41,159 bases of DNA. Origin: Aphanizomenon flos-aquae FACHB-1287. GTDB lineage: Bacteria; Cyanobacteriota; Cyanobacteriia; Cyanobacteriales; Nostocaceae. Below are positions 13,667 through 33,792 of this stretch, piece after piece. The stretch covers positions 1 through 41,159 of the forward strand of contig NZ_JACJTO010000040.1 of assembly GCF_014698755.1 (NCBI RefSeq). The letters are read 5' to 3'. Each line of letters starts with the position of its first letter. The stretch's first letter is position 1. Below the pieces are notes generated by a model. The model saw nothing but the letters and a program-made list of their open reading frames with translations. It was not told where the DNA came from and did no database searches. The position numbers and the translations under genes are program-made.

Positions 13667-15028
13667 TCACTCGTTAAGGGTTTTGTCAGACTCAAGTGCT
13701 GGATTAAAAAAGCCGATAAAAATGGAAGGATTGATTTTAATATGTTTGACAACTAAGAAACTTAACCAAACATTAGAGATTATCATAGTCACACTGGTAG
13801 CGATCGCTGATCCGATCATCCCTAAAGTAGGAATAGCGATTGTATGTAAAACTAAATTAATGATTAAGCAATAACCAATCACAGGTAAGGATTTTTTGTG
13901 ATGACCTGTCATGACCATTAAACAACCGACAGAACCACATAAAGCATCAAATAATCTACCTATAACCAATATCTTCAGCGATAAATTAGCATCAACAAAG
14001 TCTGGTCCAAAAATACTCAATATTGGTTGAGTAAAAAACATTAAACACAAAGAAATCAGTAAACTAGGCCAAAATATCCAGTAATTAGCGGTGGTAACGA
14101 GTTTTTGTAAACCGGGAATGTCTCCTTCAACATACAAAGTTGCAAACCTGGGTGCAGATATCTTATTTAATATCACCAACACGATAATTATCCAGTGACC
14201 AGTTCTGACTGCGGCACTATAAATACCTGCTTGTGCAGGACCGAGGAAAGAACCAACCAGGAGAATATCAGATTGCTCTAAGATGGTAAAAAATGCTTGT
14301 TGTAGCAACAAAGTAACAGAGATTCCTAACCATTCTTGAGTAGAATAAATCGGGGTAGCTGGTTCAATCTCATTATTTACTTTCTGATGCAACAACCAAA
14401 ATTGCACAATAACTACAATAAATAACGTAGTTATAGCTACACAAATCATTGGTAAGCTAGTCAGAAAATAGCCTTGTTTTGATAAAAAATATCCCCCACA
14501 AAATACTAATATTGGCCAGATTATTTCTGATGGAATGAAAGCTAAGGTAATTGTTGCCATTGTTCTAGCTGTCTCCATCTGCAAATGTACCAGAGATTGC
14601 AATGGTAATAATAACATTCCCACTAACATGGGTATCCCATATACAAAGTTATAATTAACACTCAAATACCAGACTATTGCTACAACAATGAGGGCTAGAA
14701 ATGTTCCTCCCAATAGGGATAGAAACCAACTTAACCGCAGAATACCACGTAAACGTCCCCAGTCTTGTTTAACTTTATACTCTGAAATTAAACGCACAGA
14801 TGTACGAGGTAAACCTAAACAAGCAGGGATTGCTAAAAGTAAAGCCCAAGAATTAACATATTCATAAATACCATATTCAGTTTGTCCCATCCATTGTGCT
14901 AGACAAATTTGCACTAAATAAGTTATCAATATATTACAAACTTGAATGCTTAGAGCTATGGTAGCATCTTTAGAAAATGCTTCTAAGAGAATATTCTTTT
15001 CGGGTTGATAAAGTGAAGATTCAGTCAT
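13667..15028 (-). CDS. Oligosaccharide/lipid flippase (MOP superfamily, Wzx-like)
   Basis: This 453 aa polytopic membrane protein has about 12-14 hydrophobic segments and the polysaccharide-biosynthesis flippase layout: an N-terminal amphipathic start, then GQTEYGIYEYVNSWALLLAIPACLG. The motif (A/G)-x(2)-EYGxYxY is typical of this branch of the MATE/MOP superfamily. Such proteins flip polyprenyl-linked glycans or other amphipathic products outward. It is the last gene of the minus-strand cluster, 640 bases past cysC, so it may have its own promoter. In this setting it could export the sulfated product, but a role in polysaccharide export cannot be excluded. Confidence 0.8.
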   Translation of the reverse strand: MTESSLYQPEKNILLEAFSKDATIALSIQVCNILITYLVQICLAQWMGQTEYGIYEYVNSWALLLAIPACLGLPRTSVRLISEYKVKQDWGRLRGILRLSWFLSLLGGTFLALIVVAIVWYLSVNYNFVYGIPMLVGMLLLPLQSLVHLQMETARTMATITLAFIPSEIIWPILVFCGGYFLSKQGYFLTSLPMICVAITTLFIVVIVQFWLLHQKVNNEIEPATPIYSTQEWLGISVTLLLQQAFFTILEQSDILLVGSFLGPAQAGIYSAAVRTGHWIIIVLVILNKISAPRFATLYVEGDIPGLQKLVTTANYWIFWPSLLISLCLMFFTQPILSIFGPDFVDANLSLKILVIGRLFDALCGSVGCLMVMTGHHKKSLPVIGYCLIINLVLHTIAIPTLGMIGSAIATSVTMIISNVWLSFLVVKHIKINPSIFIGFFNPALESDKTLNE

Positions 15029-15665
15029 ATCAATTTTGGATTTTAGATGTTGGATTGACTCTATATGTATATAAGCTTGAACAATTTATTTTCCCTATCC
15101 TCTACTCCCTACCTCCTTTCTCATTTTATATAATACCCATGTTATACTCAGTTGTTTAAACAACTCACTTACTGAAATCTGACCATGAGATTCACTATCT
15201 AGTTCCCGAATGGAGATTTGTTGTATGACTAAAGATCAACCTCCTAAGAAAATGTTTTAAAAGTAGAAGAATATCGCAAAAAAGCTCACAAAGTATAAGC
15301 TGAAATTTGAAGATATCAGCACCTTGTGAACAAATGACTAAAGTATATTTTAGTAACTTGATATAAAATGGGAATTGATTCCAAAAGAGTTTCCATTAGC
15401 TCAACCGTGTGGTCGCTACAAAATTTAAGAATATATAGTAGTTCCCATGCTCGTGAGGTACAAAGTTTTTTAGTTTTAGGGAACAGAGAATAGGGAATAA
15501 ATTGGTTTGTACTTCATGAGACTGGAAAACAATATATACAGTTAGAAGTACCATATCAACATGAAGTTGAAAAATTAAAAATTAAATACGGTTTCAGATA
15601 GATATTTATACCAATCTGAAACCTATTATTAAGATTTCCAGGAATTGAATAATTACCAATTAACT
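15029..15665. other. Spacer with gene relics between flippase and cysC
   Basis: It holds the carrier relic (15098-15258), an STRR stretch near 15478-15499, and scattered plus-strand fragments that look once-coding but are interrupted by stops (for example a frame ending in EVEKLKIKYGFR near 15560-15600). No intact gene is seen. The region looks like a site of past insertion and loss. Confidence 0.5.
15098..15258 (-). pseudogene. Relic of a second peptidyl-carrier domain
   Basis: On the minus strand this region encodes LGG-stop-SLV, then IQQISIRELDSESHGQISVS and ELFKQLS, then VLYK-stop. It matches the end of the reductase-condensation-carrier protein (LGGRSLAMI, IQQICVRELGSESHSQISVG, VLYKTRKE) almost residue by residue. 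The Arg of LGGRS has become TGA and about seven codons are deleted after the attachment Ser. The DNA match extends through the 3' flank (15091-15120 against 16343-16375). Everything upstream of the carrier domain is gone. It is a decayed duplicate that shows the cluster once held another carrier-containing gene here. Confidence 0.85.
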
Positions 15666-16232
15666 TTAGACATTAGTTAATTGAAGTTCGGGAATATCAG
15701 ATACTGGAATATATCCCATTTTTTCCAAGTAATGTATTACCTTAACAACACTTTCATCAATACTTTCCTGTTCCGTATTACAAATAATTTCTGGATTTAT
15801 AGGTTCTTCATAGGGGTCATCAATCCCTGTAAATCCTTTAATTTTTCCAGATCTAGCTTTGGCATATAAGCCTTTAACATCTCTATCTTCACAGGTTTCT
15901 AAAGATGCTTTGACATAAACTTCTACAAAATTTTCTGTCATTTGTCTTACCTTTTCTCTCGTTTCTCGATAGGGACTAATAGCAGAAACAATGGCAATTA
16001 CTTGATAACGACTTAACAGACTGGCCACAAATCCAATGCGATGAACATTAATATCCCTGTCTTCTTTACTGAAACCTAAACCTTGGGAAAGATGAGTTCT
16101 CACCACATCTCCATCTAAAACTTCTACCTGACAACATCGTTTTTTTAACTCCAATTCTACCCCCTGAGAAACAGTGGTTTTACCAGCACCACTTAACCCT
16201 GTAAACCATAAAGTTAATCCAGAATATTTCAT
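15666..16232 (-). CDS. cysC: Adenylylsulfate (APS) kinase
   Basis: 188 aa. It phosphorylates adenosine 5'-phosphosulfate to PAPS, the sulfate donor for sulfotransferases. The P-loop GLSGAGKTT lies at residues 13-21, and DGDVVR and FSKEDRDINVHRI are the APS-binding segments. FTGIDDPYEEPINPEI is the C-terminal family motif. It sits in the same minus-strand run as three sulfotransferases, so it most likely feeds them with PAPS rather than serving general sulfate assimilation. A similar pairing of APS kinase with sulfotransferase is known in saxitoxin and cylindrospermopsin clusters. The sequence is complete, with no sulfurylase domain fused. Confidence 0.95.
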   Translation of the reverse strand: MKYSGLTLWFTGLSGAGKTTVSQGVELELKKRCCQVEVLDGDVVRTHLSQGLGFSKEDRDINVHRIGFVASLLSRYQVIAIVSAISPYRETREKVRQMTENFVEVYVKASLETCEDRDVKGLYAKARSGKIKGFTGIDDPYEEPINPEIICNTEQESIDESVVKVIHYLEKMGYIPVSDIPELQLTNV

Positions 16233-16348
16233 GTTAATTTCCTATTGTTTATTGTTTGAATGAACCCGACATTTGAGAATCAAAACTTAGTACAAGACTG
16301 ATATTTAAGTTTTATTAGCATTGGTGCTTAAAACTCCATATATTTCCC

Positions 16349-19285
16349 CTAATCTCTACTTCCTACCTCCTTTCTCGTTTTATATAATACCTGTGCCATG
16401 CCACTGATTGTGGGGTGTTGAAACAACTCACCTACTGAAATTTGACTATGAGATTCACTACCTAATTCCCGAACGCAGATTTGTTGTATTTGCTGACAAA
16501 TCCGAATCATGGCTAAAGAGCGACCTCCTAAGTCAAAGAAATTGGTATGGATACCAATTTTTTCTACACCGAGCACCCCTTGCCAAATAGCTGCAATAGT
16601 TTCTTCAATTTGGTTAGTAGGAGCTATATAAGCTATTTCGGGTTGGTGAACAGGTATATTAGTTTTGACTGACCTTAATAAGGGTAAGTCTAATAATTTT
16701 CGTTCTGGATCAGCGATAATATCTGTTAGCAAAATTTGAAAATTCTGGAGTATTTCTAAGATTGTAGATTCTTGGAACAGGTCTGTTTTGTAGCGAATTA
16801 TTGCAATTAGCTGCTGCTGTTTCTCTTTCATAGAAAGGGATAAATCAAAATTAGAGATTCCTTCATTCATCTCCACTAAGTTTATGTTTACTTCTCCTAG
16901 TTTTTCAGGTAAACTGAGAACATTTTGTAAGGTAAACATAACTCGACTGAATATATTACTAGATATATTTACAGATGTTTCTAACTGTTGAAAAGATAAA
17001 TGTTGAAATTCTTGTGCTTCTAAAGTAACTCGACTGACCCGACTGAGTAATTCCAAAAAACTGGGATTTTGTCCAAGATTAGTACGCAAAAGCACTAGAT
17101 TACTAAAGTAGCCTATTAGTTTTTTGGTTTCATTTTGCTGACGACCAGCAATCGGTGAAGAGAGGATAATATCTTCTTGTCCTGAATATTGATAAAGTAA
17201 CATCTGAAATCCTGCTAATAAAGTTACAAATAGAGAAACTCCTGCTTTGTGACTTAAAGTTTTCAGATTTTCAGTTAATTCTTGTGATAATGCTAGTGAT
17301 TGAAATGCTCCTCGATAGCTAGATATTTGAGAGGATGAAAAATCAGTAGGTAATTGCAGTGGAGAAATATCACCACTTAATTGTTGTTTCCAATAGTTAA
17401 TTTGAGCTTCCAGGACTTCACCTTGCAACCATTGTCGTTGTGATTGAGCAAAGTCTACATACTGAATAGGTAATTCCGAAAGAGGTGAGGGTTTTCCAGT
17501 ACAAAAAGCTGTGTATAAAGTTGCTAATTCTCGCATCAATACAGTGTCTGACCAAATATCAGTTACAATATGATGAGTTATTCGCAAAATTAAGTTTTCT
17601 TCTGCTGATAAACACAACAGTTTGACCCGCAATAATGGACCCTCAATCAGGTTGAAAGGTTCTTGTGCTAATACAATTGCCAGTCGTCGAATTTCACTTT
17701 CCTGTTCTGAAGATGAAAGTTCTTGCAGATTGATTATTTGTAACTCAAAGGTGGGATTATTGGTAATGACCTGCACAGGTTGTCCATTCACTAAATTAAA
17801 TGTAGTGCGGAGGATTTCATGTCGTCTAATTATTTCTATCCAACTTTGTTCTAAAGCAGTTATATTGAGTAAACCTTGGAGACGAAAAACTGCACGTAGA
17901 TTATGAACAGGATTCCCAGGGTCTAATCTATCAATTAACCACAGTCTTTCTTGTGCAAAGGACAGAGGTAAATTTTGATTGCGAGGAACGGGTTGAATTG
18001 CAAAAGCTTGATTTTTTGACTTAATACTAGTTGTAATTGCTTTCCAAAAAGCAGGAGTTTTGGTACTGTTTACAGATTTTTCTGGCAAAGTGGGAAAATA
18101 ACCACTGTTATGAAAATACTTCAGGTAAATAGTAATTAATTTTTTATCTACCAGAGGGCAAATAATTGATGTCCCTGCTAATCCTGCTAAAGTATAATGT
18201 GTATCAAACTCTGGTTTCTTTTTCGTGAGAAATGTGTCTGAAGAATCCAACAGCAATAATAAGGAGGAATAAAGATTATCATGGGGATATTTAGTAGCGT
18301 AATCCCTAATTGTCACTAAAAAATCATCATAACTAACTTTCTGCAAAGGATAACCAAAAGAGTCAATAACATCAAACCAATCATGCCAATTAATTTGCTG
18401 AGAATTTGTTAAATGAAATGTCTGATTTGAATATTTATCTAACAGGGATAAATGAACAACAGATTGACTTACATAATCAACTGGAACCAAATTTAGATCT
18501 GTTTCAATTATGGGGAACTTCTTTAAATTAATACATCCTTTCAGCAAAATACATAAAGCATCTTGGAAGTTACTATTAATTCCAGTTTGGCTATGTCCCA
18601 TGATTCTTGAAGGTCTATAAATACAAGCAGGTAATCCTCTTAATTGCGCTGTCATTACTAACTGTTCTGCTACCCATTTACTTTGTCTATAACCCCCTGT
18701 CAGAGTCAATAATTCAGGTATATCTGCTTCTTTTACTGGTTGAAGTGGATTAAATGCAGAATTGAAAAAAATGCCTACCGTGGAAATAAAATGGACTGGT
18801 TTAGTTTGTGAAAGACTAGCTAAGTAAAGTACTTCTTGAGTACCTAAAACATTAGTAGGTTTTAAAGTTGAGTAAGGACAAGCAGAATTAACCCAAGCCC
18901 CATTGTGATAAATAATATCAATTTGATTGGCTAATTCATGAAAATGTTCTTTTGTCAGACCAAATAGAGGTTGAGCTAAATCTCCAACTACAGGAATAAT
19001 TCGGGAACTTAGCTTTTCTTGCCAAAGGGAATAAAGTTGTAAATGCTTTTTAATTCGGTTTTGTCCCGATACAACATCACTACTACGAATTAGACAATAA
19101 ATATCTGCTGTTGTTTTCTGGAGAAGTTCCTCTAGTAAATAAGCACCAAGAAAACCTGTTGCTCCTGTCAAAAAGATAGATTTAGGAGCTTTTAAATTTT
19201 TAGATAAGGGATTATTAAATTGAATGGAGGGATTTAAAACAGCCTCTGCTTGTAAGTTCAAGCTTTCAATAGTAGAATTGATCAT
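16349..19285 (-). CDS. Thioester reductase - condensation - peptidyl carrier protein (NRPS-like, unusual order)
   Basis: 978 aa with three parts. Residues about 33-400 form a thioester-reductase domain of the extended SDR type (FLTGATGFLGAYLL at 38-51; catalytic Y-x3-K in YRQSK near 200). Residues about 445-860 form an NRPS condensation domain (LPLSFAQERLWLIDRL near 447; HHIVTDI at 571-577, the HHxxxDG motif with Gly replaced by Ile). Residues about 885-965 form a carrier domain with the phosphopantetheine Ser923 in DLGGRSL. Reductase domains normally end an NRPS; here the reductase is first and no adenylation domain is present, so amino acid or amine input must come from elsewhere. It would form an amide or ester and a reductive release. 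Neighbours: sulfotransferase upstream, cysC downstream. Confidence 0.9.
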   Translation of the reverse strand: MINSTIESLNLQAEAVLNPSIQFNNPLSKNLKAPKSIFLTGATGFLGAYLLEELLQKTTADIYCLIRSSDVVSGQNRIKKHLQLYSLWQEKLSSRIIPVVGDLAQPLFGLTKEHFHELANQIDIIYHNGAWVNSACPYSTLKPTNVLGTQEVLYLASLSQTKPVHFISTVGIFFNSAFNPLQPVKEADIPELLTLTGGYRQSKWVAEQLVMTAQLRGLPACIYRPSRIMGHSQTGINSNFQDALCILLKGCINLKKFPIIETDLNLVPVDYVSQSVVHLSLLDKYSNQTFHLTNSQQINWHDWFDVIDSFGYPLQKVSYDDFLVTIRDYATKYPHDNLYSSLLLLLDSSDTFLTKKKPEFDTHYTLAGLAGTSIICPLVDKKLITIYLKYFHNSGYFPTLPEKSVNSTKTPAFWKAITTSIKSKNQAFAIQPVPRNQNLPLSFAQERLWLIDRLDPGNPVHNLRAVFRLQGLLNITALEQSWIEIIRRHEILRTTFNLVNGQPVQVITNNPTFELQIINLQELSSSEQESEIRRLAIVLAQEPFNLIEGPLLRVKLLCLSAEENLILRITHHIVTDIWSDTVLMRELATLYTAFCTGKPSPLSELPIQYVDFAQSQRQWLQGEVLEAQINYWKQQLSGDISPLQLPTDFSSSQISSYRGAFQSLALSQELTENLKTLSHKAGVSLFVTLLAGFQMLLYQYSGQEDIILSSPIAGRQQNETKKLIGYFSNLVLLRTNLGQNPSFLELLSRVSRVTLEAQEFQHLSFQQLETSVNISSNIFSRVMFTLQNVLSLPEKLGEVNINLVEMNEGISNFDLSLSMKEKQQQLIAIIRYKTDLFQESTILEILQNFQILLTDIIADPERKLLDLPLLRSVKTNIPVHQPEIAYIAPTNQIEETIAAIWQGVLGVEKIGIHTNFFDLGGRSLAMIRICQQIQQICVRELGSESHSQISVGELFQHPTISGMAQVLYKTRKEVGSRD

Positions 19286-19308
19286 ATTTTTTTATAACTG
19301 TATTGTAC

Positions 19309-20178
19309 TTAAATGTCGTATCCAGCTTCTTGGCAAAGTGGTTTGCAGTATTCAACCAAGTATTCAATACTTTCAGCATCTAATGAATCCTTCCACTTAT
19401 CAATTTTGCCAGTTCTAAAAGTTCTGGCCGCAGGACTATAAATTTCTGTTAATTGAGAATAAATATTCTCATCAAAAGGAATTTTCAAATAATCAGCAAT
19501 CTTTTTGACAACATTAATTTGCTTTTCAAAAGTTCCTCCACCTTGCTCACCAACCAAATCTTCAAAATTTGTAAATAAACAGTTTGGTTCATTTTTCCAA
19601 GCTAACATTGAACGATAAACTGCTGCAAAATTATTGATTTTTAGCCCAGCTTTTGGGGCATATCCTCCTTCTAAAACAAATTTTAATCGCTCTATTGAAG
19701 ACATAATTTGCAAATCATCCTCTAAAAAATGCGAAGATGGCATTTTTCCTGTATCCAAAATAAATGGAATTGAAGAAGCAACTACTGCGCGAGGATCTCG
19801 AATGATAAATAAATGATGATATTTGATTTCGGATAAGACAGAACTTAAAACTGGAGTCCAGGGAATATGTCCCAAAATATATTTTTTTTCTGGTATGTTA
19901 TCTAACCAATTCCGCAAGGTAGCTACATTGACATAACAAGGTGTTAATGCACCAATACTAATTTTTTCGTTACTGTATTCTGTGCTGGTTAGTTTTTCTT
20001 CATCGCTTAATTTTTTTCTCACCTCTCGATAATTTAAAAACCAAGGTATAGGGCTAGAATCATGATTTTCATGATCAAAATGCTCTTGATAACCCAAGAT
20101 TTCTATAGCTTTAGCTAATAAATGAGTACCACTTTTAGGTAATGAGTTAATTAAGACTCGATAGGTAGGAAATGACAT
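19309..20178 (-). CDS. Sulfotransferase, cytosolic type
   Basis: 289 aa. The 5'-phosphosulfate loop is seen at the N terminus (LINSLPKSGTHLLAKAIE, about residues 10-27; P-K-S-G-T) and the 3'-phosphate motif is HLFIIRDPRAVVASS. This is the layout of PAPS-dependent sulfotransferases that move sulfate to hydroxyls or amines. It ends 24 bases before the NRPS-like gene, so translation is likely linked. It is one of three sulfotransferases in the cluster and unlike the other two in sequence, so each may have its own acceptor position. The acceptor is unknown. Confidence 0.85.
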   Translation of the reverse strand: MSFPTYRVLINSLPKSGTHLLAKAIEILGYQEHFDHENHDSSPIPWFLNYREVRKKLSDEEKLTSTEYSNEKISIGALTPCYVNVATLRNWLDNIPEKKYILGHIPWTPVLSSVLSEIKYHHLFIIRDPRAVVASSIPFILDTGKMPSSHFLEDDLQIMSSIERLKFVLEGGYAPKAGLKINNFAAVYRSMLAWKNEPNCLFTNFEDLVGEQGGGTFEKQINVVKKIADYLKIPFDENIYSQLTEIYSPAARTFRTGKIDKWKDSLDAESIEYLVEYCKPLCQEAGYDI

Positions 20179-20252: not shown

Positions 20253-22037
20253 CTAATACATACCCATCGGAGGTATTTCCTCAGAATCAATATGCACATC
20301 CAATACTGTTGGACCAGGGTAACTATAAATTGCCTCGAAATTCAACTTTTCTAAATCTTGAGCATGACGGATAATATAACTATTTGCTCCCATAGCTTTA
20401 GCCATTAAACTAAAATCTACTGTTGGTAAAGTAAATTCTAGAGGTTCTTTTCCTGTCTGTCGATGGCGATGTTTCACCATTCCATAACATTTATCATTTA
20501 AAATCACAAATATTATTGGCAACTTTTCTACAACCGCAACAGCTAGTTCATTTCCATGCATTAAAAAGCAACCATCACCAGTAAGACAAACAACTGGTGT
20601 GTTTTTGACTCCTAAAGCTGTACCAACTGCACTACCAATTCCCCAACCCATTGCTGCTGTTTCGATAGCTAAACGATAATTTTCTGGACATGGTGGAAAT
20701 AAATAATGAATGCTCCAAGATAACCAGTTACCAATATCAACTTGAAACCGAGTTTCTGGAGGAAGATTTCTCAATAATGCACTAATTAACTGTTGTGGTT
20801 TAACACAGACTTTTGTATCTGTGTTTTGATAACTTTCTGGTTCTAAAACTTCAATTTGGCTAGGATAGTCTTGGAGTTTTTGATCATGATTGCGGTGAGG
20901 AAATAATAGTTTTGAATTCAAATCTAATTTCCCGTTACTTTGCATAGTTTCCAGTCGGGATATTAATTCCTTAAATATGGTCTTAATATCCCCTTGAATT
21001 TGCAATTGTGCCATAGAAGAACGGGCAAAATAAATATCTGAATTGTGAATATGTACCAATTTATTATTTAGTATTGCCTTATCCCATACCGATGTTTCCC
21101 ATTGCCCCAAAGTAGCACCAACTGCTAATATTAAATCAACTGATTCATCAGTTAAAGCTTGACGTGCTGTTTTATGCCCAGCAAATCCAAATACCCCTCT
21201 AGCTAAGGGATGATAAGGATCTATACAAGATTTACCACTTTGAGTAGTCAGAATTAATGCATTAATTAATTCAGCAAATCTAATGATCTCCGTTACTCCT
21301 CCCCCACAGTCTTTACCAACTAATAAAACAACTTTACGTCCTTGAATTAATACCTTATATAGAGTTTGCCAAAGATTTTCTAATGCTGGTAAATTTAGAA
21401 ATGATGTGGGTTGGGTAATTAGTTCAGATAAGTTGGGATAGGTAGTAGGTTCTGGAGCCGGAAGACGGGAAATATCTACAGGAATACTCAAATGAACAGG
21501 TCCTTTAGGTGAACCGAAAGCCGTTTTTAGTGCGGTAAATAATTTTCTCTCTAGTTGATTAGCATGAGTAACTAAACTATTGTAGCGGGTACAATGCTTT
21601 AGCATAGCTACAGTATCTATAGTGTCAGGAGAAGATTCTTGAAACGCTCCCCAGCCAAAATGTGATAAAATCGTTTGTGCTGTAATCACTAATAAAGGAG
21701 TACATTCCGCATAGGCAGACGCTATTCCTGTAATTAAATTTGTTGTCCCTGGTCCTGTTGTCGCACAGCACACACCAATTTTACCAGTCTCACGAGCATA
21801 ACCGTCAGCCATAAAAGCTGCTCCAGTTTCATGACTAGTCAAAATAGCCCGTGGACCTCCTCTTTTTTCGGAGCGTGCTAAGGCCTCATATAAAGGACTA
21901 TTATGACCACCTGGTATACCAAACACATATTCTATGCCGAGCAATTCTAAGTATTCTACAATTAAATCGCTTAGTGTTCTGTGTTCTTGTTGATTATTGA
22001 CTATGGATTTGTTTTCTAACGGGATTATTGTTGTCAT
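20253..22037 (-). CDS. Thiamine-diphosphate-dependent carboligase/decarboxylase (acetolactate synthase-like)
   Basis: 594 aa, three-domain ThDP enzyme. The N-terminal Pyr domain has the activating Glu in SHETGAAFMADGYARETG (about residue 70), the central domain follows, and the C-terminal PP domain has GDGCFLMHGNELAVAV with the GDG-x(n)-N motif ending in ILNDKCYGM. The tail IPPMGMY resembles acetolactate synthase. Such enzymes join a 2-oxo acid to an aldehyde or second oxo acid, or split such bonds. There is no small regulatory subunit gene nearby and it lies in a biosynthetic cluster, so a specialised acyloin-type coupling or decarboxylation is more likely than valine synthesis. ScyA of scytonemin synthesis is a known precedent; homology to it is untested. 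Confidence 0.85.
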   Translation of the reverse strand: MTTIIPLENKSIVNNQQEHRTLSDLIVEYLELLGIEYVFGIPGGHNSPLYEALARSEKRGGPRAILTSHETGAAFMADGYARETGKIGVCCATTGPGTTNLITGIASAYAECTPLLVITAQTILSHFGWGAFQESSPDTIDTVAMLKHCTRYNSLVTHANQLERKLFTALKTAFGSPKGPVHLSIPVDISRLPAPEPTTYPNLSELITQPTSFLNLPALENLWQTLYKVLIQGRKVVLLVGKDCGGGVTEIIRFAELINALILTTQSGKSCIDPYHPLARGVFGFAGHKTARQALTDESVDLILAVGATLGQWETSVWDKAILNNKLVHIHNSDIYFARSSMAQLQIQGDIKTIFKELISRLETMQSNGKLDLNSKLLFPHRNHDQKLQDYPSQIEVLEPESYQNTDTKVCVKPQQLISALLRNLPPETRFQVDIGNWLSWSIHYLFPPCPENYRLAIETAAMGWGIGSAVGTALGVKNTPVVCLTGDGCFLMHGNELAVAVVEKLPIIFVILNDKCYGMVKHRHRQTGKEPLEFTLPTVDFSLMAKAMGANSYIIRHAQDLEKLNFEAIYSYPGPTVLDVHIDSEEIPPMGMY

Positions 22038-24965: not shown

Positions 24966-24979
24966 GTTGAACAAACTCC

Positions 24980-26272
24980 CTAATTCATGCTCTTAATATA
25001 ATCTGCCAAAGTTTGTCCTACATAATCTCCATAGAGAATACCTTTTGCAGTTAATTCTATATGTTGTTGAGATATGGTGATAAAATCTTCTCTTTGGAGT
25101 TTGGTCAATAAGTCAGAACATAGAAATTCTAATCTGAAACCATGTCTTTTTTGAAACTTTTTCAAATCTAGACGCAGTAGTTTCATACCTAGTAACACAT
25201 CCCGCACCATCAGATCCAAACCAGTGAAGCGGTATCCACGAGCTAGTGGTAGTTCTCCAGCAGCAATCATTGCTGAGTATTTATCTGTATCGCTACTGTT
25301 TTGGAGAATGGAATCTTCTAAACAACCAAAGGCCGAAACTCCTAAACCATAGAAATCCATTCCCTGCCAAATGTTAGCAATATATTCACTGCGATCGCTA
25401 TTATTTTTGGTATAGGTAAAATAGCTCCAAGGTTGATAATTAGCTTGTGCAAATCTGTCCATTGCATACTGCATAAATTGTATTTCTTGTTCATCTGATG
25501 GTAGATGAACAACTTCTTCTCGAACACCAAGTTTATAAACTTCTGTGTTCGCAAATGCTTCCATTTTATAAACAGTGATGCTTTCTACTCCTGTATTAAT
25601 CGCACATTCTAGGCTATTGCGCCAAGTTTCATTAGTTTCTCCTGCTAATCCACTCAACAAATCAATATTAATTGCCCATTTACCTTGACCTGCTTTCTGG
25701 GCAATCTCTATAGCTCTGTAAGCTTGTTTCTCGTCGTGTCCTCTACCGCTCAATTTAATTACTTTATCGTCAAAAGATTGTACACCCATGCTCAGACGAT
25801 TTACTCCCAATTGAGCTAAGACTTCCATCTTAGATTTGGAAATTGTCAATGGTTCACCTTCAACAGAAAATTGTTTTTTGTCTCCAAAAAACTTGAAGTT
25901 TTCCTCTAAAGCTTCGACGATTTGGACAAATTGTGACTCTACTAATAAAGTAGGAGTTCCCCCACCGAAATAAACCGCGTGAATTGGTCTATTACTAAGT
26001 TGGAAACGTTCCGCAGCCATTTTAATTTCTTGGCAAAGATAATCAACATATCCTTGCACTTCTGGTCTTTCTTTTAAATCAATAGTTTTGTAGTAACAGA
26101 AGGAGCATCTTTGAGTACAAAAAGGAATATGGACATAAAGGCAGATTGGCTGCGGTTTCAATCTTTCGTCTAAAGCTTCCTTCTTCCACTGCTTAAAGGG
26201 TGGATAGTTAGGAGTTAAAGTGAGACGCTGGGGATGAAGTTCTGTGGTGTTAAGTTCAGCAACTAAAGTCAT
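24980..26272 (-). CDS. HemN/HemW-like radical SAM enzyme
   Basis: 430 aa. The iron-sulfur motif C-x3-C-x2-C is at residues 52-59 (PFCTQRCSFCYY), followed by YFGGGTPTLL, the glycine-rich SAM segment of the HemN family, and LSMGVQSFDD. The C-terminal HemN-type domain is present. Besides coproporphyrinogen oxidation and heme chaperoning, this family includes class C methyltransferases and cyclopropane-forming enzymes of natural-product pathways. It is placed between the carrier protein and a sulfotransferase, so it probably modifies a carrier-bound or aromatic intermediate. A heme role is unlikely here, but not excluded. Confidence 0.85.
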   Translation of the reverse strand: MTLVAELNTTELHPQRLTLTPNYPPFKQWKKEALDERLKPQPICLYVHIPFCTQRCSFCYYKTIDLKERPEVQGYVDYLCQEIKMAAERFQLSNRPIHAVYFGGGTPTLLVESQFVQIVEALEENFKFFGDKKQFSVEGEPLTISKSKMEVLAQLGVNRLSMGVQSFDDKVIKLSGRGHDEKQAYRAIEIAQKAGQGKWAINIDLLSGLAGETNETWRNSLECAINTGVESITVYKMEAFANTEVYKLGVREEVVHLPSDEQEIQFMQYAMDRFAQANYQPWSYFTYTKNNSDRSEYIANIWQGMDFYGLGVSAFGCLEDSILQNSSDTDKYSAMIAAGELPLARGYRFTGLDLMVRDVLLGMKLLRLDLKKFQKRHGFRLEFLCSDLLTKLQREDFITISQQHIELTAKGILYGDYVGQTLADYIKSMN

Positions 26273-26377: not shown

Positions 26378-26635
26378 TCAAGATTCCATTTTTTTAGCAA
26401 TAAATTCAGCCAATACTTGTAAATTACTGAATGAGGCCAGATTTAGCTCAGAATCAGAAAAACTAATAGAAAAATGATTCTCCATTAAAGATATTAACTC
26501 AACAGTGGCAATAGAATCAAAGCCTAAACCATCCTCAAATAATGGTAAATTTTCATCAATTTCTTCAGCCTGGAGATTGACATCCAGTTCTTCAGCAATA
26601 ATTTTTTTCAACTTATCTACTACAGTAGCAGACAT
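26378..26635 (-). CDS. Free-standing acyl carrier protein
   Basis: 85 aa four-helix carrier. The attachment site is Ser41 in DGLGFDSIATVEL, the standard D-S-(I/L) motif for 4'-phosphopantetheine. It lies 5 bases downstream of the ligase gene, which implies a shared transcript and that the ligase loads it. Its sequence is acidic, like a biosynthetic ACP. It is distinct from the carrier domain fused to the NRPS-like protein. Confidence 0.93.
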   Translation of the reverse strand: MSATVVDKLKKIIAEELDVNLQAEEIDENLPLFEDGLGFDSIATVELISLMENHFSISFSDSELNLASFSNLQVLAEFIAKKMES

Positions 26636-26640
26636 AGTAA

Positions 26641-28128
26641 TTATCTCCTAACTAAATTTGTGAAATCTGTTTTGTTGCCTATGGCAATAAGCGTTTGTCG
26701 ATCTACTTTACCATTAGATAATAAAGGCAAAGACGGCAGAAGCAATATGTGTTCAGGAATTGCCCTTTTAGGTAATAGCTGAAAACAGGAAGCCCGGATC
26801 TCTTTTTCTGACAACTGACTATTTTTAGTAAGAACACAGTATGCAATCAGTCCTTTCCCCCGTTGACTGTCTCCTTGTGCTTCAACTACTACCGCTTCTA
26901 TACCCGGAATAGTCTGAATTGCCTTTTCTACATCTGAGAATATCACCAAAAGACCATCTCGGTTCACACTGCGATCAGAGCGGCTTAAAACTTCTAAATA
27001 ACCATCTGAACTAATCCGACCCAAATCTTTAGTACAAAACCAATTACAATCTACATTTTCATATATGGGTTTTCCATCCCGATCAATATAGGCCTCAAAG
27101 CCATATTCATGCTGACACCAAAGTTCACCCACATCATTGTTCTCATTGGTAAATTCTCCTTGATTTTGTTCCACCCGCATCCGTACACCTGACACAGGTA
27201 AACCTAACTTTTGGATACGAACTTCTAAAGGTGCTTCTGGACTAGCTGCTGCCATTACCCCCATTTCTGTACTACCGTATAGTCTTACCAAGCAACCAAA
27301 CTGAGATTCATACTTTATAAAAGTATCCTCTTTCATGGTGTCACCAGCGGCTACTGTGAAGTTATATGGTCGAGAAGATTTACGCCCTTTCAGTAAAGTT
27401 TCACAAAAAACTGGAGTCATAAAAGCTACATTAGGATTAAATTCTTGCTCTCTTTGCAGATAGCGTAACAAATTAGCTCCCTTTTGTAAATCAATACAAG
27501 CTCCTACGGACACACTGGGGAGAAAAGCTGCACCTAAACCATACATATGATACAGTGGTACTGGTATTGCTACCCTAGCATCACTAGTCAGATTTAGTCT
27601 TTGTCCACAGTTTAAAGCATTTTGCCATACTTTAGCGTGGGAATGAACTACAAGCTTAGGAATTCCTGTACTTCCTGATGTGCGGAGATAAAGTTTTGCG
27701 GTCTTATCATCCTCTTTTTGAGCGTGATTATTCCATTCTGGATTTTCATGAATGAATATAAAAGATTCTGGCTGCTCCCAATTAATTACTTCCCCTTGAT
27801 TAGTCAGGCTTTCAGGGATAATCCGATAACGGCAAAATGGGGGAACAGATTGCTGTAAGTTTTGTGGTGAGGCTGTTTTAACTTCCTTAGGAACTAATAA
27901 AAAACTATAACCAGCCTCTAATAAATATAACAATGTTAAAGCACTAGTTAAAGAATTTTCACACTCCAAAACTAAACAATCTTTGGTACTAACATCCTGC
28001 TGGGCAAAGAAATTTTTTAGATGTACAAAGATATTTTTAATATCTTTGTATGAGCAGGAAAGTAGTCCATCCGTTATAACGTTTTCCGGTTTTGAGTTTA
28101 AGGATTCCAGGTCTTGAATTAGCAACAT
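26641..28128 (-). CDS. Acyl/aryl-AMP ligase (ANL superfamily)
   Basis: 495 aa adenylate-forming enzyme with all core motifs: LRTSGSTGIPKLV (A3), LYGSTEMGV (A5), CTKDLGRISSDGYLEVLSR (A7-A8) and LSNGKVDRQTL with the catalytic Lys (A10). It activates a carboxylic acid as an acyl-AMP and passes it to a thiol, here most likely the carrier protein encoded next. The chorismate lyase in the cluster makes 4-hydroxybenzoate a candidate substrate, but the binding pocket residues were not decoded. First gene of the minus-strand run, starting in the divergent intergenic region. Confidence 0.9.
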   Translation of the reverse strand: MLLIQDLESLNSKPENVITDGLLSCSYKDIKNIFVHLKNFFAQQDVSTKDCLVLECENSLTSALTLLYLLEAGYSFLLVPKEVKTASPQNLQQSVPPFCRYRIIPESLTNQGEVINWEQPESFIFIHENPEWNNHAQKEDDKTAKLYLRTSGSTGIPKLVVHSHAKVWQNALNCGQRLNLTSDARVAIPVPLYHMYGLGAAFLPSVSVGACIDLQKGANLLRYLQREQEFNPNVAFMTPVFCETLLKGRKSSRPYNFTVAAGDTMKEDTFIKYESQFGCLVRLYGSTEMGVMAAASPEAPLEVRIQKLGLPVSGVRMRVEQNQGEFTNENNDVGELWCQHEYGFEAYIDRDGKPIYENVDCNWFCTKDLGRISSDGYLEVLSRSDRSVNRDGLLVIFSDVEKAIQTIPGIEAVVVEAQGDSQRGKGLIAYCVLTKNSQLSEKEIRASCFQLLPKRAIPEHILLLPSLPLLSNGKVDRQTLIAIGNKTDFTNLVRR

Positions 28129-28486: not shown

Positions 28487-30403
28487 ATGACCTCTGGAAT
28501 AGGTAGCTTACCGACAAAACCCAACATTGTAATTTTACTGAACGACCAAGATAGTGCTGCAGTAGCAGAAACTTGGCCACAAAGCTTTGAGGAGGAAAAC
28601 TTACCAGCACTAAAGCGTCTAAAACAAAATGGCTTAAACTTCAAAAAAGCATTTATTGGTTCTGCCGCTTGTTCACCTAGTCGAGCTTGTTTTCTTACTA
28701 GTACTTATCCCCAAGAAAATGGCGTTTTACAAACTCTAGGAGATGTAAAATCAGATGACCGTGTGAGCGCTGTTAGTACCCCTGTTGGTTTCGCTCAAAG
28801 TGTTCTCCGTCCTACCCAGCTTAACCTGGGTCATATGCTTAAAGCTGCTGGATATAAAGTTTACTGGAAAGGCAAGTGGCACTTGAGCCACCCCGTCAAT
28901 GGTACTAATACCTGGACTGATGAAGACGTTAAGTTTATGAAAGAAGCTTACGGCTTTGATGGATGGAATCCTAGTGATGCAGGTATTACCAAAATCGACC
29001 CTCAATTATTTGGAAAAGGTTTGTGCTTACATGACATCCGCTTTTTGGAAGGCAATAAAAATGCCTGTGTTCAAGATGCTGATAAAACCAAGGCTTGTAA
29101 ACAACCTTTAGTAGATGCAGAAAGTATTCTGGAATTTATTGAGAGATATAATCCTGAAGACGGTCCTTTTTGTCTGATTGTATCTTTAGTTAATCCTCAT
29201 GATATTCACTCTGCTCCTCACTTTGAGCCAGAAGCAGGATATGACGAGGAAGAGTTTCGCCATTTTAACCTTCCCGTACCTGCAAATGTAGAGGAAGATT
29301 TATCAAGTAAACCAGAAGTCCATGAAATCAGAAGACAAGGGGCTAGAGTTGGTGATGCTAATGTTTCTAAAAGACTAGCAAAAGAAGCAAAAGAGAAACT
29401 AGCAAAAGCAAATACTACTGGACTGACTCAAACAGAAATTGATAAGCTCAAACAAGAGGCTGCAGAGTTAGAAAAGAAATCCAAACGAGTAGTATTTGGA
29501 GAAGCAAAGAGTAATGCTGAGATTCCAGAATCTCGACAACTATTTGTGAACTTCTATGGCTATTTGAAGAAGATCGTAGACGAGCAAATGAATAGAGTTC
29601 TCGAAGCGATGGATGAGAAGGGTTTGCTTGCAAATACTTTAGTCGTAAGGACTTCTGATCATGGTGAGATGTGTCTTGCTCATGGACAAAGAGAAAAGAA
29701 TTACTTTGCTTATGAAGAAGTAATGCGCGTTCCTTTGGTCTTCTCTCATCCCACACTATTTCCCACACCACGGGAAACCAATGTTTTAGCTAGTAGCCTT
29801 GATGTCTTACCAACTTTAGCGCGTATTGTTGGTGTCTATGATATGTTCAAGTATGCGTTTAAAGGATCTGATCTCACACCTTTATTTATAGATCCTGAAG
29901 CAAAAATTACCTGGTCTTTTGACTCAGAAACAGAGCGGGACTCGATTCATTACGCTAGTGATGATGGTTTCTTACCAGATCGTTTTCAATATACTCCTAT
30001 TTACATCCGCACTGTCCGCACTGATAACTGGAAGTATTCAGTTTACTTTAATAGGTTAGGGAACAGATTTGAGTACGAGCTGTACAATTTAGAAAATGAT
30101 CCTCAGGAAAATAACAATCTGGTTGGTGTAGCTAGATATTTTGACAAACAACAAGAGTTACATACCAAGTTACAAACATTAATGATCAAAATGGGGACTG
30201 TACCTACTCCCTATTGGATATATACAGAAGCAATGCAGAAAACTTCATTTGTACCGCCACAATACTGGCCTACAAGTCCTGAAGCTGTATTGGGTGGTAG
30301 AATGCAGTACGAAGCTAATAAAGCTCAACAAAAATTCAGACGTTCAACCCTAATTCAATCCCAGGTGAACCAAGTATCTCCTGATTTGTGGTGGGTTGGA
30401 TAA
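28487..30403 (+). CDS. Type I sulfatase (formylglycine-dependent), cytoplasmic
   Basis: 638 aa alkaline-phosphatase-superfamily sulfatase. Residues 62-66 are CSPSR, where the Cys is oxidised to formylglycine. The metal and sulfate ligands are seen in LLNDQDS (about 17-23), KGKWHLS and RTSDHGEMCLAHG. It hydrolyses sulfate esters, and choline-sulfatase-like members have a comparable x-D-Q start. No signal peptide is present, so it should be cytosolic. A Lys/Glu/Ala-rich, probably coiled-coil stretch is inserted near residues 285-345 (AKEAKEKLAKAN). Opposite a cluster of three sulfotransferases, it could trim, activate or detoxify a sulfated product, or recycle sulfate. Activity needs a formylglycine-generating enzyme, not in this window. 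Confidence 0.9.
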   Translation: MTSGIGSLPTKPNIVILLNDQDSAAVAETWPQSFEEENLPALKRLKQNGLNFKKAFIGSAACSPSRACFLTSTYPQENGVLQTLGDVKSDDRVSAVSTPVGFAQSVLRPTQLNLGHMLKAAGYKVYWKGKWHLSHPVNGTNTWTDEDVKFMKEAYGFDGWNPSDAGITKIDPQLFGKGLCLHDIRFLEGNKNACVQDADKTKACKQPLVDAESILEFIERYNPEDGPFCLIVSLVNPHDIHSAPHFEPEAGYDEEEFRHFNLPVPANVEEDLSSKPEVHEIRRQGARVGDANVSKRLAKEAKEKLAKANTTGLTQTEIDKLKQEAAELEKKSKRVVFGEAKSNAEIPESRQLFVNFYGYLKKIVDEQMNRVLEAMDEKGLLANTLVVRTSDHGEMCLAHGQREKNYFAYEEVMRVPLVFSHPTLFPTPRETNVLASSLDVLPTLARIVGVYDMFKYAFKGSDLTPLFIDPEAKITWSFDSETERDSIHYASDDGFLPDRFQYTPIYIRTVRTDNWKYSVYFNRLGNRFEYELYNLENDPQENNNLVGVARYFDKQQELHTKLQTLMIKMGTVPTPYWIYTEAMQKTSFVPPQYWPTSPEAVLGGRMQYEANKAQQKFRRSTLIQSQVNQVSPDLWWVG

Positions 30404-30537
30404 AACCGAGAAAACTGCCCATTGAGATAGTGAAGTCATTGTAGAAATTGCTGAGGGTAGAATGATTTCTGCACCTACTCTCAGATTTCTACAAAGTTTC
30501 TAAAATTACATCAACGATTAAATTTTGGTGAGAAAAC

Positions 30538-31011
30538 ATGAAAAAAATTGCGGGGATTTTGTCATTACTTCTGTGTTTAGCAACATTTTTTATGACTCCA
30601 TCAGCTCTAGCTGACGTATCTCCAGTTCCAGTAATAACCTCATCTCCAGTATCTGTACCAGTTCTAGATGAAAACGATCCTATCTGGAAACTAAGTTCAC
30701 CAACTTTTACATCTCAGGGAGGTACTGTATATCACGGTTATGTTATTAATCCCAAACTTTGGAATCTCACAACCGGAACGGGATCACGGAAATTTGTGAC
30801 TCATGTTTACTTTGAAGAACCCTATCAAAATATACCTACAGTCACTGTTTCTCTAACTGGATTAGATACAAATAATCTAGCCAATCAACGCATTGTGGTT
30901 AAACCTATTAATATCACCCTAACTGGATTCGATTTAGAATTTAGCACTTGGGCTGATAGCGGAGTTTATTCAGTTTGGTCAAATTGGACTGCTTTTGGCA
31001 ATAATGCTTGA
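30538..31011 (+). CDS. Secreted H-type lectin-like protein 1
   Basis: 157 aa with a cleavable signal peptide (MKKIAGILSLLLCLATFFMT, cut after ALA) and a Pro/Val/Ser linker, then one H-type lectin-like domain. The hallmarks are RKFVTHVYFEEPYQNIPTV, VSLTGLD, and FDLEFSTWADSGVYSVWSNW followed by TAFG. H-type lectins (Helix pomatia agglutinin, discoidin C-terminal domain) bind N-acetylgalactosamine and related sugars, usually as trimers. It is the longest of three tandem paralogues. Expected in the periplasm or outside the cell. It follows the sulfatase by 135 bases on the same strand, which may link it to that gene. Confidence 0.8.
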   Translation: MKKIAGILSLLLCLATFFMTPSALADVSPVPVITSSPVSVPVLDENDPIWKLSSPTFTSQGGTVYHGYVINPKLWNLTTGTGSRKFVTHVYFEEPYQNIPTVTVSLTGLDTNNLANQRIVVKPINITLTGFDLEFSTWADSGVYSVWSNWTAFGNNA

Positions 31012-31063
31012 TAGAAAATTTAGCTAATCTGCTGAAGACAATAATTTTTGTTTGGAGAAAAGA

Positions 31064-31477
31064 ATGAAGAAGATACTGTGCTTTTTGTCCCTAATTCTCT
31101 GTTTGACAACATTTTTCATTTCACCATCAGCTCAAGCTCAAACTAGTGAACTCAACCTCCAAAATGTTAAGGAATTTAAAGTTCAGGGGGGAGCATTAGT
31201 TAATGGTTATTCTGCTAACCCTGAAAAATGGAATCTTTTAACTGGTACTGGAAATCGTGAATTTACCAGTCACGTTGATTTTAAAGAAGCCTATGCCCAA
31301 AAACCAGTTGTTGTGTTAGCAATTTCTGGTTTAGACGTATTAAATGCTGCCAATAATCGAATTACAGCTACAGCTACAAACGTTACTCCAACAGGATTTG
31401 ATATCAATTACAAAACCTGGGCAGATAGCCAGATTTGGTCGGTATTTTTGAATTGGACTGCATTTGGTGGTAAATAA
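31064..31477 (+). CDS. Secreted H-type lectin-like protein 2
   Basis: 137 aa. Signal peptide MKKILCFLSLILCLTTFF, cut after AQA, then one H-type lectin-like domain with REFTSHVDFKEAYAQKPVV, ISGLD, and GFDINYKTWADSQIWSVFLN followed by WTAFGG. The ATG at 31064 is chosen because GGAG stands 8 bases upstream; the frame runs on to a TTG at 31052, which overlaps that site. It lies 52 bases after lectin 1. The signal peptides of the three paralogues are almost the same, so they arose by tandem duplication and then diverged in the sugar-binding face. Confidence 0.8.
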   Translation: MKKILCFLSLILCLTTFFISPSAQAQTSELNLQNVKEFKVQGGALVNGYSANPEKWNLLTGTGNREFTSHVDFKEAYAQKPVVVLAISGLDVLNAANNRITATATNVTPTGFDINYKTWADSQIWSVFLNWTAFGGK

Positions 31478-31524
31478 AAAAATTTACAACCTATCTAGTA
31501 AAACAATAGATATTGGGAAGAACA

Positions 31525-31929
31525 ATGAAGAAAATTGCTTGGCTTTTGTCTTTAATTTTGTGTGTTGCTACTTTGATGATTTGTCCGCCAGCACAAGCTG
31601 CCCAAGAGTGGGAAATGATTTCACCCTATTTGCGATTTCAAGGTGGTAATCTCTATTACGGTGCCTATGAAAATGGACAAACATGGACTCTTAATCAAGG
31701 AACTGGAGAGCGGAAGTATACCAGCCATATTGATTTTAAAGATTCCTATGTTATTCCTCCCAATGTGATTGTTTCACTGACTGGGATAGATGGGGATAAT
31801 AAAGCTAATAGTCGCATTAATGTTGTGGCTACAAATGTAACAGAAACAGGATTTGATATAGAATACAAAACCTGGGCAGATACCAAAATTACTTCAATTT
31901 GGTCAAGTTGGACTGCATTAGGCGAGTAA
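31525..31929 (+). CDS. Secreted H-type lectin-like protein 3
   Basis: 134 aa. Signal peptide MKKIAWLLSLILCVATLMIC, cut after AQA, then an H-type lectin-like domain with RKYTSHIDFKDSYVIPPNV, LTGIDG, and GFDIEYKTWADTKITSIWSS followed by WTALG. The ATG at 31525 has GGGAAG just upstream; a TTG four codons earlier is less likely. It is 47 bases after lectin 2, so the three form one short operon or a read-through unit from the sulfatase. Confidence 0.8.
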   Translation: MKKIAWLLSLILCVATLMICPPAQAAQEWEMISPYLRFQGGNLYYGAYENGQTWTLNQGTGERKYTSHIDFKDSYVIPPNVIVSLTGIDGDNKANSRINVVATNVTETGFDIEYKTWADTKITSIWSSWTALGE

Positions 31930-32430
31930 TATTCTTTCTTGATTGTAATAGTCTTAGAGGATGTTTGAAAAGTCGGACAGGTTCTAGACTGATGAAAAAT
32001 CAAGGCTAATGGAATCACGTATTCTTGGTCCAGTAAATGACAGGCCATGGCTAACATGGCCACAATGATCTAGTTAAACTGACCGAAAAAAGTCGGATAC
32101 CAGCCCCGTCCTTTTAGGACGGGTTTATAGTAAACTAGGTATAGTCGCAATAGGGTATTGGGAGACTATAAACGGACACTCCAGACTGGACAGATTTTCG
32201 GTAGCATCGGTCAATGGAGTGTCAAGTAATCCTCGCTCATGAAAGGACGAGGAGGTATGTCAAATTGTTGCTACATTTATTTCTGGTAGGAAGCACTGCA
32301 ATAGTGTTATGATGTGTAAATTGGGCTGTTTATGATTTTTGAGTTTTTGTTTTAGAAGACAATAACTCCACTTTATCAGCCCTCTTTTCATCCTATTTTT
32401 TTAGCAAAGGTATTGACAAGGTTAGTAAAA
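31930..32430. other. Spacer with a mobile element between lectin 3 and the aminotransferase
   Basis: It holds the second miniature IS605-like element (32080-32263) and the aminotransferase leader. No coding sequence is supported. The element sits between the lectin and aminotransferase genes, so it may separate the aminotransferase from the upstream transcript. Confidence 0.5.
32080..32263 (+). mobile_element. Miniature IS200/IS605-like element, copy B (possible orphan guide-RNA scaffold)
   Basis: A 184-base block aligned with copy A at 4607-4788. The left hairpin is CCCCGTCCTTTTAGGACGGG and the right one is CCTCG-CTCATGAAAGGA-CGAGG, ending GGTATGTCAA. Only the loop of the right hairpin and about 30 bases in the middle differ strongly, so the hairpin shapes have been kept while their bases changed. 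The last bases before the host flank match the TCAA right cleavage site known for IS608-type elements. No TnpA or TnpB is encoded. Confidence 0.6.
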
Positions 32431-33792
32431 ATGGAACAAGCAGAATCACACGTTTTTTATGCAGCCGGTTGGCATAAATCTTATCCAGTAGCAGAATATG
32501 GTCAAGGCATATATTTATATGATTCAGATGGTAAACAGTATTTAGATGCCATTGGTGGTACTCATGTTATTTCCATAGGACATGGTGTAGCGGAAGTAGC
32601 TGATGCTATAGCAGAACAAGCTCGTAAACTCTGCTTTGTTCATAAAGCCCAATTTACCAGTGAGGCCCAGGAACGTTTGGCTGATATGGTAGCAGCAATG
32701 GCCCCAGAGGACATGGATCGTGTAGCTTTTGTAACTGGGGGATCAACAGCTAATGAAATAGCTTTCCAAATGGCCCAACATTATCATCGAGAAAGAGGAA
32801 ACCCTGGCAAGTATAAAATGATTGCGCGTTGGCATAGTTATCACGGGAGAACTATTGCTACTGTAGCCATGTCTGGTAGTCTCTTTGTGCGACGTGATTT
32901 GCCTCCTTTTGACTTACTCAACTTTCCGCATATTCAACCACCACACTGTTATCAATGTCCATATGGTTTGACTTATCCTAGTTGCCAACTAGCTTGTGCA
33001 AACGAATTAGCTAGAACTATTGAACAGGAAGGACCAGATACTATAGCTGCTTTCATAGCTGAACCTATTATTGGTGGGGCTGGCAGTGCTATTGTACCAC
33101 CACCGGGTTATTATGAAAAAATTCGGGAAATATGTGATTTTTATGACATCTTGTTTATCTCTGAGGAAGTGATCACGGGTTTTGGTCGAACAGGTAAAAA
33201 TTTTGGGATTCAACACTGGAACGCTATACCAGACATTATTACTGCAACTAAAGGTTTAAGTAGTGGATATGCCCCTATAGGAGCGGTTATTCTGCACAAG
33301 CGTGTTTATGAGACTTTTACAAAGAGTAAGAGAAACGGATTACCTGCATTTTTAACCTATTCTGGACATCCCATCAGTTGTGCTGCTGCTTTAGCTGTGC
33401 AAAAATACATTCTCAAGCATAATCTCATTGAGCAATGTGCAGTTATGGGTAGGTACTTAAAAAAAGAGTTGCAAAAACTGGCTGATAGAGAGCCTCTAAT
33501 TGGGGATGTTCGTGGAGAAGGTTTATTGTTGGGACTGGAGTTTGTTAAGAATCGGGAAACTCATCAACCTTTTGAGCGATCGCTACATATTTCGGAAACA
33601 GTTGTCCAACAAGGTTTTAAAAATGGGTTAATCCTCAGAGGTAGATTTGGTACTGGTATTAGATCAGATGGAGATCACATTTTAATTTCTCCACCCTTTA
33701 TCATTACAGAGAGTCAATGTGATGAAATTGTTACTCAGTTAGAATTAACTATTAAACAGGTGAGAGAGTCTTTAAGTCTAGTGTGTGTCTAG
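32431..33792 (+). CDS. Class III PLP-dependent aminotransferase
   Basis: About 453 aa from the ATG at 32431 (a TTG six codons earlier is possible). The fold-type I, class III layout is complete: GGSTANEIAFQMA, WHSYHGRTIATVAMSG, then ISEEVITGFGRTG (about 242-254) and the PLP Lys274 in TATKGLSSGYAPIGA. The Asp that normally contacts the PLP ring nitrogen (D-E-V) is Glu245 here. Family members use omega-amino acids, taurine, diamines or amino alcohols. In the cluster it could convert the aldehyde made by the thioester reductase into an amine, which is inference. Confidence 0.85.
   Translation: MEQAESHVFYAAGWHKSYPVAEYGQGIYLYDSDGKQYLDAIGGTHVISIGHGVAEVADAIAEQARKLCFVHKAQFTSEAQERLADMVAAMAPEDMDRVAFVTGGSTANEIAFQMAQHYHRERGNPGKYKMIARWHSYHGRTIATVAMSGSLFVRRDLPPFDLLNFPHIQPPHCYQCPYGLTYPSCQLACANELARTIEQEGPDTIAAFIAEPIIGGAGSAIVPPPGYYEKIREICDFYDILFISEEVITGFGRTGKNFGIQHWNAIPDIITATKGLSSGYAPIGAVILHKRVYETFTKSKRNGLPAFLTYSGHPISCAAALAVQKYILKHNLIEQCAVMGRYLKKELQKLADREPLIGDVRGEGLLLGLEFVKNRETHQPFERSLHISETVVQQGFKNGLILRGRFGTGIRSDGDHILISPPFIITESQCDEIVTQLELTIKQVRESLSLVCV

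Follow-up and report, generated by a model that had tools for sequence, protein, structure and literature searches.

The contig NZ_JACJTO010000040.1 of Aphanizomenon flos-aquae FACHB-1287, a cyanobacterium of a bloom-forming kind, referred to at its full length of 41,159 nt as the window, carries a cluster of biosynthetic genes from which we infer a set of reactions, their order and a product. The product is likely to be a sulfated 1-aryl-1-hydroxy-2-aminopropane, an aryl unit of the type that occurs in the aeruginoguanidines. We commit ourselves to this reading because each bond of that unit is matched by one core gene, provided that in the aeruginoguanidines the unit is a disulfate of 1-(hydroxyphenyl)-1-hydroxy-2-propylamine whose ring bears a one-carbon branch. 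In its support, every predicted enzyme class is present with family scores and motifs, the partner genes co-occur and co-diverge, the core is common to Microcystis, the adenosine 5'-phosphosulfate (APS) kinase is the sole one in the genome, and the cluster's chorismate lyase, divergent in sequence, comes in addition to the housekeeping copy.

Genes of the window and the proposed pathway

The cluster comprises 11 minus-strand genes, spanning positions 13667 (flippase) to 28128 (ligase), and a divergent plus-strand arm that encodes a sulfatase, a trio of H-type lectins and a class III aminotransferase; the reading frames of all of them are open. An initial annotation of this DNA had listed the 11 genes and the divergent arm, and all of the enzymes it named are present, although it overlooked the three lectin genes at 30538–31929. 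Every gene named here has Pfam scores above the curated cut-offs (scores are given below in bits, 'versus' the cut-off). Eight intergenic gaps, from the gene for a thioester reductase–condensation–carrier protein (R-C-T) through the ligase gene, measure 5 to 105 bases each; the gap between the APS kinase and R-C-T genes is 116 bases and that between the flippase and APS kinase genes 637 bases. Thirty window open reading frames (ORFs) were scanned with Pfam, and with NCBIfam cut-offs for class tests; statements about the scanned ORFs refer to these.

The pathway would begin with the chorismate lyase paralogue (22858–23424, minus strand, as are all genes up to the ligase; PF01947, 67 versus 22 bits), which would convert chorismate to 4-hydroxybenzoate. 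This copy reaches 35 bits with NF037993 against a cut-off of 175, and a housekeeping chorismate lyase scoring 279 bits is encoded elsewhere in the genome. An AMP-forming aryl ligase (26641–28128; AMP-binding, 106 versus 30 bits), the sole AMP-binding protein among the scanned ORFs and well below the cut-off for adenylation (A) domains of non-ribosomal peptide synthetases (NRPS; 90 versus 317 bits), would load the acid onto a free acyl carrier protein (ACP; 26378–26635; PP-binding, 45 versus 21 bits). While the acid is ACP-bound, its ring would next gain one carbon through a HemN-like radical S-adenosylmethionine (SAM) enzyme (24980–26272), in the manner of NosN acting on NosJ. The nosiheptide proteins NosI, NosJ and NosN are described as methylating a carrier-bound aromatic acid on the ring (PMC5585349), and they resemble the window proteins in combining an adenylating ligase, a free carrier and a HemN-like radical SAM enzyme; the window differs in that its substrate is probably 4-hydroxybenzoate and in that release is probably by a reductase rather than a hydrolase-like enzyme.

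The radical SAM enzyme matches its Pfam families, contains the motif CTQRCSFC and has as its best PDB matches HemN (1olt, E 2e-39) and, second, NocN (9p2u, E 2e-25). It has both the CxxxCxxC motif and the HemN C-terminal domain of class C enzymes, its cysteines are invariant in 10 of 10 aligned sequences, and it falls below the cut-offs for HemN (196 versus 325 bits), HemW (199 versus 205 bits) and HutW (233 versus 400 bits). It is probably a class C ring methylase, a class for which a structure is reported (PMC12871812).

Release of the aldehyde from the carrier would fall to the thioester reductase (R) part of R-C-T (16349–19285; Pfam matches; TIGR01746, 321 versus 213 bits), which carries the short-chain dehydrogenase/reductase motifs GATGFLG and YRQSK; the condensation and carrier parts, with the motifs HHIVTD and LGGRSL, may couple the amine and a trans-loaded acyl group. 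A thiamine diphosphate (ThDP)-dependent carboligase (20253–22037; three TPP domains in Pfam) would add the two-carbon unit of pyruvate to the aldehyde, giving a phenylacetylcarbinol-type ketone. Its Glu70 is invariant among nine aligned sequences and the GDG...ND motif is present; it lies below the acetolactate synthase cut-off (296 versus 538 bits, among the best 25 of 55 NCBIfam families listed), and its PDB matches are BbmA (E 9e-96) and acetolactate synthases. The class III aminotransferase (32413–33792, plus strand; 302 versus 31 bits) would turn the ketone into an ephedrine-like amino alcohol.

Sulfate could be placed on the phenol and the side-chain hydroxyls by three sulfotransferases: ST1 (19309–20178; Sulfotransfer_1, 47 versus 22 bits), ST2 (22100–22813; Sulfotransfer_2, 64 versus 22 bits) and ST3 (23454–24974; Sulfotransfer_3, 105 versus 27 bits). 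The donor, 3'-phosphoadenosine 5'-phosphosulfate, would be supplied by the cluster's own APS kinase (15666–16232; 209 bits; motif GLSGAGKT), the only match in the 4.3-Mb genome, an assembly of 85 contigs of which the window is one (C35). ST3 has an N-terminal extension, found in 4 of 9 aligned proteins, that by eye resembles a hydroxylase-type domain; Pfam gives a weak cupin match in genome G038 and none in those four proteins. No hydroxylase-type gene of the Asp/Arg-hydroxylase or TauD kind was seen in the window. Finally, a flippase-like exporter (13667–15028; Polysacc_synt, 43 versus 28 bits) may export the product, and a type I sulfatase (28487–30403, plus strand; motif CSPSR; 130 versus 25 bits) may remove sulfate; the best NCBIfam match of the latter is choline-sulfatase, under its cut-off.

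The lectin genes (plus strand, 30538–31011, 31052–31477 and 31513–31929; 70, 69 and 70 bits, each versus 24) stand in tandem between the sulfatase and aminotransferase genes, and the N termini of their products look signal-peptide-like by eye. Also within the window are a photosystem II gene and, downstream of a ribD-like gene, a 698-aa ORF (38814–40910) with zero Pfam matches.

Recurrence in cyanobacteria and the Microcystis locus

ST2 sequences from four genomes were aligned and the genome_contigs collection was scanned, giving 112 confirmed relatives, of which the best 80 were analysed; the loci were viewed with up to 10 kb on each side, and many are cut by contig ends. Partner genes were counted above identity floors of 37–60%, set gene by gene after a first view of the loci. 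Where ST2 was at least 50% identical, at least two of nine partner genes were present in 28 of 36 loci and at least one in 32, in contrast to none of the 44 loci with ST2 below 50%, and these partner counts (28/36 versus 0/44) rule out a chance grouping. The gene set is a true cluster. Among the 36 close loci the chorismate lyase gene was found in 21, ST3 in 15, the ligase and ACP genes in 13 each, the radical SAM and R genes in 12 each, ThDP and ST1 in nine each and the aminotransferase in four; genes of the arm and flank were rarer still (sulfatase 3, lectin 1 in 2, APS kinase 1, flippase 1). The APS kinase is no general mark of the cluster, because it is commoner beside distant ST2 genes (7/44) than beside close ones (1/36). 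Nor was it supported as a household gene of the genus, being full-length in 9 of 16 genus genomes; a looser tally of 16/16 also takes in fragmentary copies and weak P-loop hits.

Pairwise identities of six genes, compared across six cyanobacterial loci, correlate at 0.54–0.95, the chorismate lyase fitting this co-divergence least (the window's is 76% identical to that of UBA11153 and 57% to that of Microcystis). ST2 relatives at E 1e-30 or better occur in 36 of 388 genomes of the order, exceeding 300 bits in 15 of them, and the nearest named relative in the scan is that of Dolichospermum planctonicum NIES-80 (96%). The aminotransferase gene lies within the cluster in G011 of the same genus, UBA11153, Microcystis wesenbergii, Spirulina and SBLK (70–78% identity). 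UBA11153 (G136), of another family, has the lectin trio (63–73%) and the sulfatase (59%) adjoining its cluster, which a TauD gene accompanies; in G038 there is an Asp/Arg-hydroxylase gene. Sulfatase relatives flank the cluster in UBA11153, a Trichodesmium metagenome-assembled genome (MAG) and M. viridis. In the Spirulina locus (L054), a tryptophan-halogenase-like flavoprotein is encoded at 12016–13785 between R and chorismate lyase.

Within the genus the cluster, as judged by its radical SAM gene, is present in 3 of 16 genomes. G003, with a cluster of the D. planctonicum type, has a gene order identical to that of the window at about 93–98% identity, except for the sulfatase (59%), whose alignment (L033, 3961–5814) contains one in-frame stop. 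The version in G011 is nearer to that of Microcystis than to that of the window (aminotransferase 86%, ThDP enzyme 79%) and has a stand-alone reductase; an APS kinase relative (68%) adjoins it, and a flippase relative (56%) lies within it between ST2 and the aminotransferase. A 391-aa ORF encoding a DDE transposase domain interrupts ST3 of G011 (L036, 3593–4768). G006 holds a clear remnant, in which an N-terminal stretch of 45 residues of the APS kinase (98%) and a C-terminal one of 24 residues of R-C-T (71%) are joined directly to the glcD flank; this deletion scar lies at about 10750–11065 of L169 (G006:C23). A scar in G010 is probable rather than sure, because only short non-coding stretches of the cluster edge (78–94%) are left. 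G001 showed no cluster remnant in the 12.7 kb examined. Given the remnant in G006 and the probable one in G010, a fresh insertion of the cluster into the genus is unsupported. A stretch at 15240–15420, found near the remnants, was considered as a dispersed repeat and rejected, being single-copy in the window genome. The right flank is not conserved: pyrD adjoins the cluster in the window and lies on another contig in G003.

Of particular interest is a locus of M. wesenbergii (G282, L042), in which ten core genes, those for the ligase, ACP, radical SAM enzyme, ST3, chorismate lyase, ST2, ThDP enzyme, ST1, R and aminotransferase, occupy 21.5–45.6 kb of one contig (G282:C114) at 56–75% identity to the window. 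This locus, about 30 kb long up to an ABC transporter, also encodes A-T-C and A-MT-T-C NRPS proteins, a PF01255 prenyl-diphosphate synthase, two O-methyltransferases, an acyl-CoA-dehydrogenase-like protein, a second R and two orphan proteins of 270 aa. Among single-stretch PDB matches the anabaenopeptin ApnA A1 domain, which presumably takes arginine, ranks first for each of the two A domains (465 and 568 bits). The orphan proteins (L150, 5247–6930) are 65% identical to each other and have no Pfam or NCBIfam match; perhaps, and this is a guess, they are N-prenyltransferases. At the end of the locus (L151, 11371–13407) a Tle1-like phospholipase domain is joined to a laminin-G-like domain.

Pancrace and co-workers reportedly described in 2019 the agd cluster of Microcystis, for aeruginoguanidine and microguanidine. 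In the literature agd appears as an NRPS cluster of 34 kb, listed for 11 Microcystis (PMC10304443); aeruginoguanidine has been linked to an NRPS cluster (PMC8222398), and N-prenylation of aeruginoguanidines and microguanidine has been described (PMC4413215). Taking the M. wesenbergii locus as agd, the window shares its ten core genes but differs in having, among the scanned ORFs, neither NRPS A domains nor a PF01255 synthase, in having R fused to C-T where the Microcystis R stands alone, in gene order, and in its APS kinase, flippase and lectins, for which the M. wesenbergii stretch offers no match. R also stands alone in UBA11153, and the fusion as in the window is found in G038. The initial annotation had recognised no named cluster in this set, but a lack of any named relative is not borne out, the ten core genes being clustered in Microcystis at a locus that fits agd; there is good support for its broader proposal, that these genes form a cluster making a sulfated aryl product. 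It had also set aside the saxitoxin and cylindrospermopsin clusters, whose likeness to the window is presumably confined to the theme of APS kinase and sulfotransferases. Compared by theme rather than gene by gene, these differ from the window, where no polyketide synthase or amidinotransferase domain was found among the scanned ORFs, and we reject a saxitoxin-like reading on that ground. New here, as it appears from the parts of the searched literature that were available, is a compact version of the cluster, in a Dolichospermum-like genome, with a fused R-C-T and no amino-acid-activating module.

Relatives beyond cyanobacteria

The chorismate lyase and ST2 genes recur in sulfur bacteria, Desulfobacterales and methanotrophs, in some cases with the ligase, ACP and radical SAM genes. 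All five of these starter genes (chorismate lyase, aryl ligase, carrier, HemN-like radical SAM enzyme and ST2) occur together in MAGs of Thiotrichales (L061), Methylobacter (L065) and Chloroflexaceae (L066); Thioploca, Thiomargarita and Desulfobacterales have some of them. In L055 (Desulfobacterales) and L069 (Methylococcaceae) a C-T protein without an A domain is followed by a KS-AT-T-TE polyketide synthase; in L074 (Thioploca) a C protein without an A domain is followed by KS-AT-T-TE domains over two ORFs, and a KS-AT-T-TE synthase lies at the edge of L052. SPASM radical SAM proteins are encoded in L074, L055 and L052, and sulfatases in L052, L073 and L074. Beside ST2 and chorismate lyase in L069 there is a 370-aa ORF (11339–12451) that is amidinotransferase-like by eye, with no Pfam match at 1e-4.

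The C-T part of the window's R-C-T shares 42–44% identity with the C-T proteins of L055 and L069, so that the window gene appears to join two parts that occur separately in this family. We suggest tentatively, at somewhat less than even odds, that a starter cassette for a sulfated, carbon-branched 4-hydroxybenzoyl unit extends far beyond the cyanobacteria and feeds different assembly lines, with the sulfatases that lie beside several of these clusters switching the products on or off by taking sulfate away. Such a cassette would lead in the window to an ephedrine-like amino alcohol, in Microcystis to an arginine peptide, and among sulfur bacteria and methanotrophs into a polyketide line of C-T plus KS-AT-T-TE.

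Alternative explanations and significance

A number of observations weigh against the sulfated amino alcohol proposed here. The two halves of the gene set part company in places, and the set is not kept whole everywhere: Xenococcus (L048) has the ligase, radical SAM, ST3, ST2, chorismate lyase and ST1 genes with no ThDP, R or aminotransferase gene in view, the second half without a ligase, ACP or radical SAM gene in view is found in Spirulina (L054) and SBLK (L059), and the G038 contig, which ends soon after R-C-T, has no ThDP, ST1 or aminotransferase gene, ThDP matches across the G038 genome reaching at most 31%. Six of the nine genus genomes with a full-length APS kinase are without the cluster. 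The window has no amino-acid-activating domain or prenyl gene among the scanned ORFs, and one of the orphan 270-aa Microcystis proteins has no relative in the window genome, G003, G011 or G038. Only size, host and domains link the M. wesenbergii locus to the agd cluster, nothing relevant to the aryl structure stood among the literature matches listed, and the literature search found no reaction for CsmA or for BbmA, the nearest solved relative of the ThDP enzyme.

An unlikely alternative, to which we give some weight, is that a plain sulfated aromatic acid or amide is made instead, with the radical SAM and ThDP enzymes acting otherwise (the latter, for instance, on another keto acid) and C-T forming an amide from the aryl-ACP and an amine. 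Many loci do contain the starter genes with no ThDP, ST1 or aminotransferase gene in view, and C-T or C proteins lacking an A domain adjoin the polyketide synthases of L055, L069 and L074; yet the ThDP, ST1, R, aminotransferase and chorismate lyase genes occur together and co-diverge in the window and five other cyanobacterial loci. We think it improbable that the genes decorate a cell-surface glycan or lipid with an attached aryl unit, the flippase, sulfotransferases, sulfatase and lectins acting on envelope sugars. The polysaccharide-type flippase, the three lectins and the choline-sulfatase match, below cut-off though it is, would suit that role, but no glycosyltransferase family was matched among the scanned ORFs, and the recurrent partners are the aryl ligase, carrier, R and ThDP genes, as opposed to the flippase (1/36 loci) and lectins (2/36).

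Least probable, in our judgement hardly credible, is an aeruginoguanidine-like cluster in decay that has kept its aryl part and lost its arginine and prenyl genes. Decay does happen in the genus, as follows from the remnant in G006, the probable one in G010 and the split ST3 of G011; every cluster gene of the window is nevertheless open, the same gene order is conserved in G003 at about the identities given above, the sulfatase excepted, and UBA11153, from another family, has this same compact set, lectins and sulfatase included, with no NRPS genes in the 20 kb seen.

If a sulfated 1-aryl-1-hydroxy-2-aminopropane is indeed the product, an uncharacterized cluster of Dolichospermum type becomes tied to a known Microcystis compound family, and the compound to seek in an available culture, D. 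planctonicum NIES-80, can be named. A bacterial route to chiral sulfated phenylpropanolamines would also be on offer, and a class of sulfated metabolites would become testable through the starter genes that uncultured sulfur bacteria and methanotrophs carry.

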